Assembly: GCA_016177765.1 (NCBI GenBank) | Contig: JACOUP010000008.1 | Span: 253,021 to 317,020 of the forward strand | From: Deltaproteobacteria bacterium | GTDB taxonomy: Bacteria > UBA10199 > JACPAL01 > JACOUP01 | DNA: 64,000 nt | Direction of reading: 5' to 3' | In this document: positions 45,504 through 49,684 of the stretch, one piece after another | How the letters are laid out: each line of letters opens with the position of its first letter | Position numbering within the stretch: the stretch's first letter is position 1 | Made by a program: the position numbers and the translations under genes | The notes under the pieces: generated by a model | Databases searched by the model: none | What the model was told of the DNA's origin: nothing | What the model saw: only the letters and a program-made list of their open reading frames with translations

Positions 45504-46307
45504 TTGTCCCTTTGGCAGATCAGCCTTCATATTCTTTTGCCTCTCTTTAAGCTTGTCAATCTTGAGCTCAATCATCTTCGGATTCGGGTAGGTCGAGAGA
45601 AGTTCTTCATAGATCTTCAACGCCTTGTCCCATTCCGCCATCTCTTCCAGGGCCAAGGCGGAACTGAACCGAGCCCTCAACAAGTAAGGGCTTTTAGGGA
45701 AGTTGCTGATCAACTGCTGATAGGCTTCCAGTGCCTTGTCAAACCTGTTCTGCAGGAAAAAACTCTCCCCCAGGTCGAGCCAGGCCCCATCGATCCAATC
45801 ACTTTTTGGAAAATCCTTGATCAGACGGACCAAGGCTGACTGGGACTTGGCATATTCCTGGGTCTTGAGATAACAGGAAGAAAGCTGATACAGATAGTAG
45901 TCGGTCCGGGAGGAGTCAGATCGTTGACTGAGGAGCCGCTCATACTCGCCGATCGCCGAGAGGGAGTCCCCCTCGGCCTCGAACAACGAAGCCCTCCGTT
46001 CCAGCGCCGTGAGGGCCTCTCTCCCCTTCCCCTTCCACCGTTCCGCTACCTCGGCATAGGCCTTCAGGGCCTGATCACGATCGGCCAGTGAATATTGATA
46101 AATCTCCCCAATCCTCAAAGAACCGGCAACCGCCTCCGCCGATTGCGGGTAACGATCCATCAGAAAACGGTAAACCTCAATCTCCTCAGCATATCGCTTT
46201 TCGTTATGGAGTCGTTCCGCCCTGAGGAGCTCTTTGTGGGGGGAATCTTTTTGACAGGCCAGGAAGAGAAACAAGGCCAAGAATAACCCGAGGGTGTTCC
46301 GGATCAC
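45456..46307 (-). CDS. TPR-repeat lipoprotein, BamD/YbgF-like
   Basis: 283 residues with a lipoprotein signal ending FLACQ. Tandem TPR-like pairs run through the protein: [62 protein letters not shown]. It may be a periplasmic scaffold like YbgF or BamD. The ATG overlaps the gyrA stop by 4 bases. The tail after KADLPK ([17 protein letters not shown]) is created by the repeat at the gene's 3' end and by readthrough into the antisense of the convergent gene. Confidence 0.8.
45493..45515. repeat. GGGTGAWTCACCC-family repeat at a convergent gene overlap
   Basis: CCAAA-GGGTGATTGTCCC-TTTGG, an extended palindrome with 8-bp arms. It provides the TGA stop of the plus-strand parvulin gene and GQSP of the minus-strand TPR gene. 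Confidence 0.7.
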
Positions 46308-48742
46308 CCCTCTTCCTCTTCCCTTTCAGCCAGTTTGGCAAAGGCGCCGACCCTCTCCCCCTCTTCCAGGTGGATGAGTCGAACCCCCTGGGTATTACGG
46401 CCGATTTTTGAAATCTGCTTTACCGGCAGGCGGATGATCTTCCCCTTGTCACTGATCAACATCACATCGTCTTCTTCCGTCACCTGTTGGACCCCTACCA
46501 CAAGACCGTTCTTGTCGGTGGTTTTCACCGTAATAATCCCCATCCCGCCGCGCCCTTGGGTCCGGTATTCCGCCGTCTCCGTCCTCTTGCCGTAACCGTG
46601 CTCAGTCACTGTCAAGATCGCCGCCCCTTCGCGAATCACCTCCATACCGACCAACTCATCCCCCTTGTCTAAACGGATACCGATCACACCGACCGCGGAA
46701 CGCCCCATCGGTCTCACCTGATCCTCATGAAAGCGAATCGCCAACCCCTGACGGGTCCCCATGAAGATATCTGAAGTGCCATCGGTCAGCTTGGCATCGA
46801 TTAAGTCATCCCCTTCTTCAATCCCCAGGGCAATAATCCCGCTCGCCCTTGGGTTGGCATACGCCATCAGCTCCGTCTTTTTGACAACCCCCTTCTTGGT
46901 AGCAAAAACGACATATTTCCCCTCCACAAATTCCTTCACCGTTAAAATAGCGGCCAGTTTTTCATCAGAGGCCATCGGAACCAAATTCACCAGCGGCTTC
47001 CCCTTGGCAGTCCGTCCCGCCTGAGGAACCTCATGCACCCTCAGCCAGTAAACCTTGCCGCGGGAGGAAAAGATGAGGAGATACCCATGGGTCGAGGCAA
47101 TGAAGAGATCAGAGACAAAATCTTCCTCCCGGGTCTCCATGCCGACCTTCCCTCTCCCTCCCCTCCTCTGGGCCCGGTAGATCGAGATCGGGTTTCGCTT
47201 GATGTAACCGGAGTGGGAAATCGTCACCACCATGTCCTCTTCGGCGATCAGGTCTTCCACGGAAAGCTCCTGGGTCTTCCCCTGAATCTCGGTCCGCCGT
47301 GGGTCGGCATACCCTTTTTTGATCTCGTTCAGTTCTTCCTGAATGATCTCCAAAACTAGCTTCTCACTCTTCATGATCTCCTTCAGCCGTTTGATCAATT
47401 TAATGACCTCGGTATATTCTTCCAGAATCTTGTCCCGTTCCAAGGCGGTCAACCGCTGCAGGCGCATATCGAGGATCGCCTGGGCCTGGATCTCCGAGAG
47501 CGAATACTTCTTCATCAACGCCTCTCTCGCCTCCAGCGGAGACTTGGACTTCTTGATCAGGGCAATCACTTCATCGATATGTTCAACGGCAATCCTTAAC
47601 CCTTCCAGAACGTGCGCCCTCTCCTCGGCTTTTTTGAGTTCAAAGGCGGTCCGCCGTTTGACCACTTCCTTGCGATGGTCCAGAAAGAGAACCAGGGCCT
47701 CCCTGAGATTCAGGGTCTTTGGCTGTCCACCGACAATCGCCAGCATGATGACACCGAAGGTCGACTGCATGACCGTATGCTTATAAAGTTGATTGAGAAT
47801 GACACCGGCAACCGTCCCCTTCTTGAGTTCGACAACGATCCTCATCCCGTCCTTGTCCGATTCATCACGAACGTCGGAAATTCCCTCGATTTTCCCCTCA
47901 TTCACGAGTTCTGCTATCTTTTCAATAAGACGGGCCTTGTTGACCTGGAAGGGGATCTCCGTGATGACAATATTTTCCCGGTCACCGCGGGCCACCGGTT
48001 CAATCATCGCCTTGGCCCGCATATGGATAATCCCCTTGCCGGTCTCGTACGCCTCGCGGATCCCCTCTCTCCCATAAATAAACGCCCCTGTCGGGAAATC
48101 GGGGCCGGGGATGATCTTCATCAACTCCTTGACGGTTGTGTCCGGTTTCTGGATCAGGGCGGTCAGACCATCAATCACCTCTCCCAGATTGTGGGGAGGG
48201 ATCTTGGTCGCCATCCCGACGGCGATCCCGTCAGAGCCATTCACCAGAAGGTTCGGAACCTTGGAGGGGAGAACCACCGGCTCCTGGGTGGAATCATCAA
48301 AATTGGGAATAAAATCGACCGTTTCCTTTTCTATATCCGCCAGTATCTCCTCGGCCAGGCGGGTCAGACGGGCCTCGGTATAACGGTAGGCAGCCGCAGG
48401 ATCACCATCGATGGAACCGAAATTCCCCTGACCATCGATGAGCGGGTAGCGCATGTTCCATTCCTGCGCCATCCGGACCAGGGCGTCATAAACCGCCATG
48501 TCCCCATGGGGGTGGTACTTCTTTAAAACCTCCCCGACAACACCGGCTGATTTGGAGTACCTCTTGTTGGAAAGAAGCCCTTCCTGATACATCGCATAAA
48601 GAATCCGGCGATGGACCGGTTTGAGGCCGTCACGGATGTCCGGGATCGCCCGCCCGATGATCACGCTCATGGCGTAATCCAGATAGGAATCCCTCATTTC
48701 ATCTTCGATATTAACCGGAACGATTTCGGCGGAACGAACCAT
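46304..48742 (-). CDS. gyrA: DNA gyrase subunit A
   Basis: 812 residues. GyrA introduces negative supercoils with GyrB. The catalytic tyrosine is Tyr121 in RYTEARL, and the GyrA box QRRGGRGK identifies it as gyrase rather than ParC. In the quinolone-binding stretch [11 protein letters not shown], methionine (Met82) stands where E. coli has Ser83. A near-consensus promoter lies 11 bases before the ATG and there is no Shine-Dalgarno, so translation may be leaderless. The downstream TPR gene overlaps by 4 bases. Confidence 0.98.
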
Positions 48743-48753
48743 AAGAATGGCGA

Positions 48754-48781
48754 ATTATGCTGGAGAAACCGAAAATGTCAA
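48754..48781 (-). promoter_or_regulatory. gyrA promoter
   Basis: On the minus strand: TTGACA (48781-48776), 16 bases, CATAAT (48759-48754). The predicted start is about 5 bases before the gyrA ATG. Confidence 0.6.
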
Positions 48782-48809
48782 TTTTAGATTCACTTTCAAT
48801 TTTTTATTC

Positions 48810-48838
48810 TTGACACCCCGAGAAGAATAGTATTATAC
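48810..48838 (+). promoter_or_regulatory. Promoter of the HU gene
   Basis: TTGACA at 48810-48815, followed by an A/T-rich TATTATAC region (48831-48838). It lies nearly 200 bases upstream of the HU start, so the transcript has a long leader. Confidence 0.5.
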
Positions 48839-48840
48839 CT

Positions 48841-49015
48841 GCCCCCGCTGTTGATGGTGCCCGCAAATGTAGGACTAACAAAGACTTGCGGGAGTCGGTG
48901 ATGAGGATAGCGGGTGAATCGGGAAAGCCCGAACTGACGAAGAGAGAAATGCGAAACCTGTTTCAACCCACCACGGTTTTTCAAAAGTTCCAGTCGAGTA
49001 AAATTTTTAAAAGGG
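48841..49015 (+). ncRNA. Possible structured leader RNA ahead of HU
   Basis: Two CCCGC blocks (48844-48848, 48860-48864) and two GCGGG blocks (48888-48892, 48910-48914) allow either nested or alternative stems, including CCCGCAA with TTGCGGG. A further hairpin TCGGG-AAAG-CCCGA lies at 48919-48932. No Rfam family was recognised by eye. It ends shortly before the HU Shine-Dalgarno. Confidence 0.4.
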
Positions 49016-49031
49016 GGGAGGTGAAAATCAA

Positions 49032-49304
49032 ATGACAAAGGCAGAATTAATCGGCTATGTCGCCCGGGACTGCAAGGTCTCCAAGGCGGTAGCTGAAAAA
49101 TGTCTCAACTCGGTGACCGCGAACGTCACCAAGTCACTGAAAAAGAAGGACAAGATCACCCTGACCGGATTTGGGACCTTTTCCGTGAGCAAGAGAAAGG
49201 CACGGAAGGGCCGTAACCCACAGACGGGGGCCGAGATCGATATCAAGGCCGCCAATGTGCCAAAGTTCAAGCCCGGCAAGGAACTAAAGAAGGCTGTTCT
49301 CTAG
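49032..49304 (+). CDS. HU-family nucleoid DNA-binding protein
   Basis: 90 residues, full-length HU/IHF fold. KAELIGYVARDCKVSKAVAE at the start, ITLTGFGTFSVSKRKARKGRNPQTG in the DNA-binding arm, and FKPGKELKKAV at the end are diagnostic. It has a strong Shine-Dalgarno (GGGGGGAGGTG), a long leader and a terminator, so it is probably a highly expressed single gene. Confidence 0.97.
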   Translation: MTKAELIGYVARDCKVSKAVAEKCLNSVTANVTKSLKKKDKITLTGFGTFSVSKRKARKGRNPQTGAEIDIKAANVPKFKPGKELKKAVL

Positions 49305-49363: not shown

Positions 49364-49459
49364 GCCTTTCCGGGGGCCTCTTGACAAGATTTCCAAAAGG
49401 GGGTACGACCCCCGCACACTTGAAAAGGTGAAATTTCCAGGGAAGGGGGTGAATTGATC

Positions 49460-49684
49460 ATGAAGAAGACCGCACTGTTGCTCGTTGCATTGTTCGGAAT
49501 CTCTGTCGCTGGCGCTGTCAAGGCTGAAGAAACCAAGGTTCCCGCCGCCGCCAAAGAAGCCGTCAAGCAAGAAGTCGTCAAGAAGGATGCCACCAAGGAT
49601 GTCGTGAAGGCAGACGAGGCCAAGAAGGCTACTGGCCAAGAAGCCAAGAAAGTCGAAGAGAAGGCCAAGGCAAAGACAAACTAA
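49460..49684 (+). CDS. Small exported Lys/Ala/Glu-rich protein
   Basis: 74 residues from the ATG at 49460, with GGAAGGGGGTG upstream. A signal peptide (LLLVALFGISVAGAVKA) is followed by a low-complexity, charged helix of KEA/KKA/VKK units. It could be a small periplasmic or cell-wall-associated structural protein. The family is not recognised. It has a good Shine-Dalgarno and sits alone between two hairpins. Confidence 0.65.
   Translation: MKKTALLLVALFGISVAGAVKAEETKVPAAAKEAVKQEVVKKDATKDVVKADEAKKATGQEAKKVEEKAKAKTN

Follow-up and report, generated by a model that had tools for sequence, protein, structure and literature searches.

Upstream of the HU gene of a deltaproteobacterium we report a 33-bp dyad that is probably a conserved DNA operator of this gene, with a putative binding protein, as judged from comparison across the class. 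The dyad has a preferred spacing, is conserved across families, has copies that fall within the predicted transcript and others that do not, and is linked to HU rather than to the neighbouring gyrA. Most likely it is bound by a protein with repressive effect, which would be either HU itself, in an autogenous manner, or a dedicated repressor. HU is among the most abundant DNA-packing proteins of bacteria, and to our knowledge the control of its level is known in few species. The site lies in the window, i.e. the whole stretch of 64,000 nucleotides analysed here, from a genome of 1.92 Mb (G000), and the features of the locus are collected in Table 1. An HU-linked operator in many families, usually placed within a divergent gyrA-HU pair, would provide a defined 33-bp bait for the regulator, and the dyad raises the question of whether HU itself can be sequence-specific.

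Table 1. Features of the gyrA-HU locus in the window.
Feature	Position	Strand	Remarks
33-bp dyad, putative operator CCCGCAAA-N17-CTTGCGGG	48860..48892		arms CCCGCAA 48860-48866, TTGCGGG 48886-48892
HU gene	49032..49304	+	90 aa, Pfam Bac_DNA_binding
gyrA, divergent neighbour of HU	46304..48742	-	
-35 box TTGACA of the HU promoter	48810..48815	+	from sequence; kept in G001
-10 box TATTAT	48831..48836	+	15-bp spacer; from sequence; kept in G001
Shine-Dalgarno GGGGGGAGG of HU	49013..49021	+	from sequence
Outer CCCGCT block (first CCCGC of the first-pass annotation)	48844..48849	+	not conserved
Outer AGCGGG block (second GCGGG of the first-pass annotation)	48909..48914	+	not conserved
TCGGG-AAAG-CCCGA hairpin	48919..48932	+	chance level; no aligned counterpart in G001

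The divergent gyrA-HU pair (46304-49304 in the window) is found in most of the class, in 33 of 40 loci, one contig (L026) being too short for the linkage to be judged. A first-pass annotation of the window had described a long leader behind a good promoter, and this description largely stands: 11 of the 12 positions of the promoter boxes match, both boxes and their spacing are preserved in the relative G001, and the leader measures about 190 nt from the predicted start to the ATG at 49032. The spacer of 15 bp is the less favourable part, and because of it the promoter was not listed by a scan for spacers of 16-18 bp. The -35 box is likewise present at HU in other families. Two further frames were seen nearby. 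One, downstream of HU (49454-49684), encodes a Lys/Ala-rich protein of 76 aa with a signal-like start, for which no Pfam match was found when the residues from 49463 on were scanned. The other is a small frame at 48854-48901 (MVPANV...; ATG GTG CCC GCA AAY GTA ... TGC GGG ... TGA), uninterrupted in G001 as in G000; no Shine-Dalgarno was found for it and no counterpart was seen in L007.

The leader had been proposed to be a switching RNA, possibly a new RNA motif, in which two CCCGC and two GCGGG blocks pair in mutually exclusive ways. All four blocks are present as described (CCCGC at 48844 and 48860, GCGGG at 48888 and 48910), and so is the TCGGG-AAAG-CCCGA hairpin placed between them and the gene. 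Dinucleotide shuffling of 48841-49015 (2000 shuffles) gave a G+C-rich 5-bp hairpin in 276 cases, a 7-bp inverted repeat in 401 and, in 413, a 5-mer that was present twice with its complement also present twice. The precise combination of two CCCGC with two GCGGG was seen in 0/2000, in a test picked after the pattern had been seen. The predicted fold of the same region, at -43.0 kcal/mol, compares with -44.1 +- 4.4 for shuffles (z +0.26), and that of 48841-49060 has z +1.71. One leader fold pairs a 5' CCCCC with the G run of the Shine-Dalgarno, and the CCCCC is missing in G001. The first-pass annotation matched no known riboswitch, in agreement with Rfam 15, whose covariance models gave no match at gathering score over the whole 64-kb window, only sub-threshold matches at E<=10 in the leader region, and nothing but tRNAs in 20 HU loci. 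No terminator-like site was found on the + strand of the HU leader, and a phage DNA search returned no matches. The sequence alone gives no support for the window leader as a structured RNA.

Conservation of the individual repeats could be followed in the nearest relative. A search with the leader DNA over 60 genomes returned, besides the genome itself, only G001, with the promoter and the start of the leader, and G011, with the Shine-Dalgarno and the gene start alone. The contig of G001, a member of the same family, breaks inside the HU leader, and this genome was handled apart from the 40 upstreams described below. The inner pair, CCCGCAAA...TTGCGGG (48860-48892), consists of 7-bp arms separated by a 19-nt gap; in G001 both arms (48860-48866 and 48886-48892) are identical, while 10 of the 19 loop bases differ. 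G001 also keeps the promoter and the stretch GCTGTYGATGGTGCCCGCAAAYGTAG. The block at 48844 reads CATCAGC there and that at 48910 is absent, so that in this single same-family relative the outer blocks, and with them the mutually exclusive pairing, are gone. Nothing aligned in G001 matches the TCGGG hairpin, its contig ending there. Of the repeats of the window, the inner inverted repeat alone is kept. As a 7-bp inverted repeat arises in a fifth of the shuffles counted above, the window copy might be a functionless chance repeat; this is very unlikely given the identical arms around a changed loop and a motif derived without the window's own family (f1) that the window site nevertheless matches.

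That motif comes from the HU upstreams of the class. Of the 45 other class genomes 40 have an HU orthologue (62-89% identity), only distant HU/IHF-like matches being present in G030, G034, G037, G038 and G045, and usable upstreams numbered 40 in 21 families, the window's included. Of the 21 families (40 genomes), 8 have the form CCGC-N23-GCGG in the 300 bp preceding HU. CCGC-N15-GCGG was also enriched (5 families), a spacing that a single rigid dimer does not explain, and every other spacing from 3 to 69 was found in at most 2 families; in 300 shuffled sets no spacing reached more than 3. The remainder of these loci (94.6 kb) held the N23 form in 2 families, and it was absent from 79 HU upstreams of other lineages, a set in which at least one entry (L036) duplicates a class member. 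In this latter set (L036-L114) a de novo search gave another palindrome, with half-site AAACCCTT, a 7-bp gap and log-likelihood 55.5.

Fitting a palindromic model to the 40 upstreams gave a log-likelihood of 102, against 23 +- 5 in 100 shuffled sets. With each family left out in turn, 27/40 upstreams had a site at p<=0.05 and 19/40 at p<=0.01. The control stretches taken together gave 8/153 at p<=0.05, near chance (HU coding 1/40, downstream 4/35, 300-600 bp upstream 1/39, 600-900 bp upstream 2/39). Since the palindromic fits had begun from the half-site of the window, the search was repeated from random starts, with a free gap of 4-30 and with f1 omitted, on the HU upstreams of 39 genomes in the 20 other families. 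It returned a 33-bp dyad, CCCGCAAA-N17-TTTGCGGG, at log-likelihood 84.8 in four runs, 40 shuffled sets giving 29.9 +- 2.8 with a maximum of 41.3, and the window site agrees with this f1-free motif at 15 of 16 positions. A control de novo search at 300-600 bp upstream of HU also scored high (log-likelihood 80), with other motifs, which are taken to be conserved gyrA coding sequence; the null therefore consists of the shuffles and the leave-one-out controls only. Dyad symmetry and a preferred half-site spacing, as looked for in an operator, are both found across the relatives. The dyad is not universal, since 13/40 upstreams lack a significant site, including all six f6 genomes, and some of the counted sites are weak or mainly one-sided (f3, f5, f10). 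The f6 upstreams (L031, L034, L115, L117, L118, L125), which have no dyad, have in common a stretch GAGTTTATGGTTGACG across the -35 box.

The position of the dyad relative to the promoter bears on whether it acts as DNA or as RNA. With offsets counted from the first base of the -35 box to that of the dyad, and with transcription starts that are predictions, the dyad stands at -15 in f9, f11, f17, f18 (two genomes) and f19, where it is centred on the -35 box and is therefore untranscribed from that predicted promoter; a second copy at -14 is present in one f21 genome. Positions past the box are +35 (four f13 genomes), +43 to +47 (both f21 genomes and a single genome each of f10 and f13), +47 and +51 (f3) and +50 (f1, f4, f5); in f10, f14, f17 and f20 the dyad begins farther upstream. 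A matrix built from the untranscribed copies alone picks 48860-48892 as the best site in the 64-kb window (21.2 bits, the next 12.7) and finds a site at p<=0.05 in 19 of 28 tested upstreams, window and G001 included. The dyad sequence is kept whether it is transcribed or not, as far as the predicted starts tell, as would be expected of an operator. Conservation of the arms outside the RNA is not what one expects of an RNA element, and because the arm sequence is conserved in untranscribed copies we take the hairpin of the leader to be a DNA site in transcribed form.

These positions also weigh on a cis-regulatory leader RNA, in which the inner hairpin of the mRNA, perhaps with the outer pair, would control translation on binding HU or a ligand. 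It would accord with the conservation in G001 of the inner arms and of the GCTGTYGATGG stretch to their left, with the copies inside the predicted leader in f1, f3, f4, f5, f13 and f21, and with the 17 of 40 class HU leaders that fold at z <= -2, RNA roles in relatives being possible; HU is also reported to bind RNA in the parts of the source consulted (PMC3969353). We nevertheless consider it unlikely for the window, whose leader folds no better than shuffles, has no Rfam match and in G001 is without the outer pair and any visible TCGGG hairpin, and what is conserved is arm sequence beyond mere pairing, in untranscribed copies as well. Class HU leaders, moreover, range from 20 to 243 nt. Conservation of pairing in relatives' leaders, on which the switching RNA had been staked, is accordingly divided: the alternative pairing is not kept in the one relative, and the inner pair is kept but also where it is not transcribed. 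What survives of the proposal is a regulatory element between the promoter and HU, now as a conserved dyad and without the RNA-switch mechanism. There is a more general caution in this, as a dyad in DNA just past a start site looks like a hairpin of leader RNA, and it takes copies beyond the transcript to distinguish the two.

The divergent arrangement leaves two genes to which the dyad could belong. Where gyrA is unlinked (six genomes: f7, f8, two f16, two f21), none of the 6 gyrA upstreams had a site at p<=0.05, with which a separate check of the plus-strand loci agreed, while the HU upstreams of the same genomes gave p 0.0025 (both f21), 0.027 and 0.0125 (f16), 0.035 (f7) and 0.067 (f8); in two linked genomes put to the same test the dyad was seen from the gyrA side too. 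The dyad goes with HU, not with gyrA. Its exact window form occurs once in G000. Across 46 class genomes the exact form CCGCAA-N19-TTGCGG was found 20 times and a reversed control 8 times, and apart from two HU copies the 15 loci inspected were all inside mechanical ORFs of >=125 aa. The best match in G000 to a covariance model built on 22 sites was HU (E 0.027), the model's HU matches not being independent as it was trained on HU sites; 11 of 13 inspected matches elsewhere were in ORFs, one of the 11 (L156) of uncertain position. Genome-wide searches of the class with the exact form and the covariance model revealed no regulon beyond HU, and no regulator came to light. G021 (f14) had unusually many matches to the dyad, with 4 exact against 0 for the control and 8 matches to the model, of which three inspected were in ORFs.

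If the dyad is an operator, a dimeric (or larger) protein would read half-sites CCCGCAAA and TTTGCGGG, 17 bp apart, on double-stranded DNA. In the window's family it would be bound from about +17 to +50 and either form a roadblock or impede escape from the promoter, and in other families it would lie across the -35 box and exclude RNA polymerase. A site over the -35 box or just past the start is typical of repression by exclusion or roadblock. The simplest role would be that of a repressor site holding HU at a set level, the window hairpin being presumably the RNA copy of a dyad just downstream of the start site. Autogenous control of HU, which the first-pass annotation had suggested, is possible. 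More specifically, the HU homodimer of the class could read its own 33-bp dyad sequence-specifically and so set its own level beside gyrA. We regard this as rather doubtful. HU is normally thought unspecific as a nucleoid protein; the footprints of its relatives IHF and TF1 measure about 35-37 bp, and the length of 33 bp fits these. If true, nucleoid packing would be tied to supercoiling. A long-gap dyad as such has a precedent in the BirA operator, with two inverted half-sites about 15-17 bp apart; the two sites share this architecture and differ in the half-site.

Inverted repeats at HU promoters have been described before. In the parts of the literature consulted, HU of E. coli is described as a repressor of hupA and hupB, and a large inverted repeat as overlapping the promoter of hupA (PMC3969353, describing Kohno 1990, 1994). 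The class dyad resembles this arrangement, as described there, in being an inverted repeat at an HU gene promoter for which negative control of HU is proposed. It overlaps the promoter in f9, f11, f17, f18 and f19 and lies downstream of the predicted start in the window. It differs from the E. coli arrangement in that the E. coli repeat is large and a proposed cruciform, and the class site has 33 bp, preferred spacing and conserved arms in many families. The same source, citing Kohno 1994, describes a proposal that the hupA repeat extrudes under negative supercoiling, assisted by HU, and blocks the promoter. Such a cruciform would suit the divergent gyrA neighbour in 33/40 loci; it is highly improbable here, as the 7-bp arms with their 19-nt gap are short for extrusion and a cruciform needs neither the fixed 17-bp gap nor the conserved arm sequence that are found. 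In Staphylococcus aureus, WalR is reported to repress hup (PMC10746227), which likewise puts an HU gene under a DNA-binding regulator, through a motif of 17 bp (TGTHH-N6-WGTNDD) unlike the 33-bp dyad of the class. For the E. coli HU genes, Fis and CRP are cited as separate regulators in the part of the source consulted (PMC5890176). Our literature searches found no paper describing the dyad motif, nor one on a leader RNA of HU in this class, text matches to the dyad octamers being judged unrelated from titles and abstracts.

Other HU leaders of the class have RNA-like features of their own. The strongest folds are those of L122 (z -6.25) and L009 (z -4.64), and the leaders of L119, L122, L124 and L009, with z from -4.4 to -6.3, have unrelated shapes. 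In f13 (L029, L030, L120, L121) the HU leaders, of 175-213 nt, share AACGAACAGACYCCATGTCKGCA and AAGAGATGACGCCTGCTGGTT as near-invariant blocks and form a long helix in which a double change turns C-G into U-A. They have no Rfam match and make better leader-RNA candidates than the window does.
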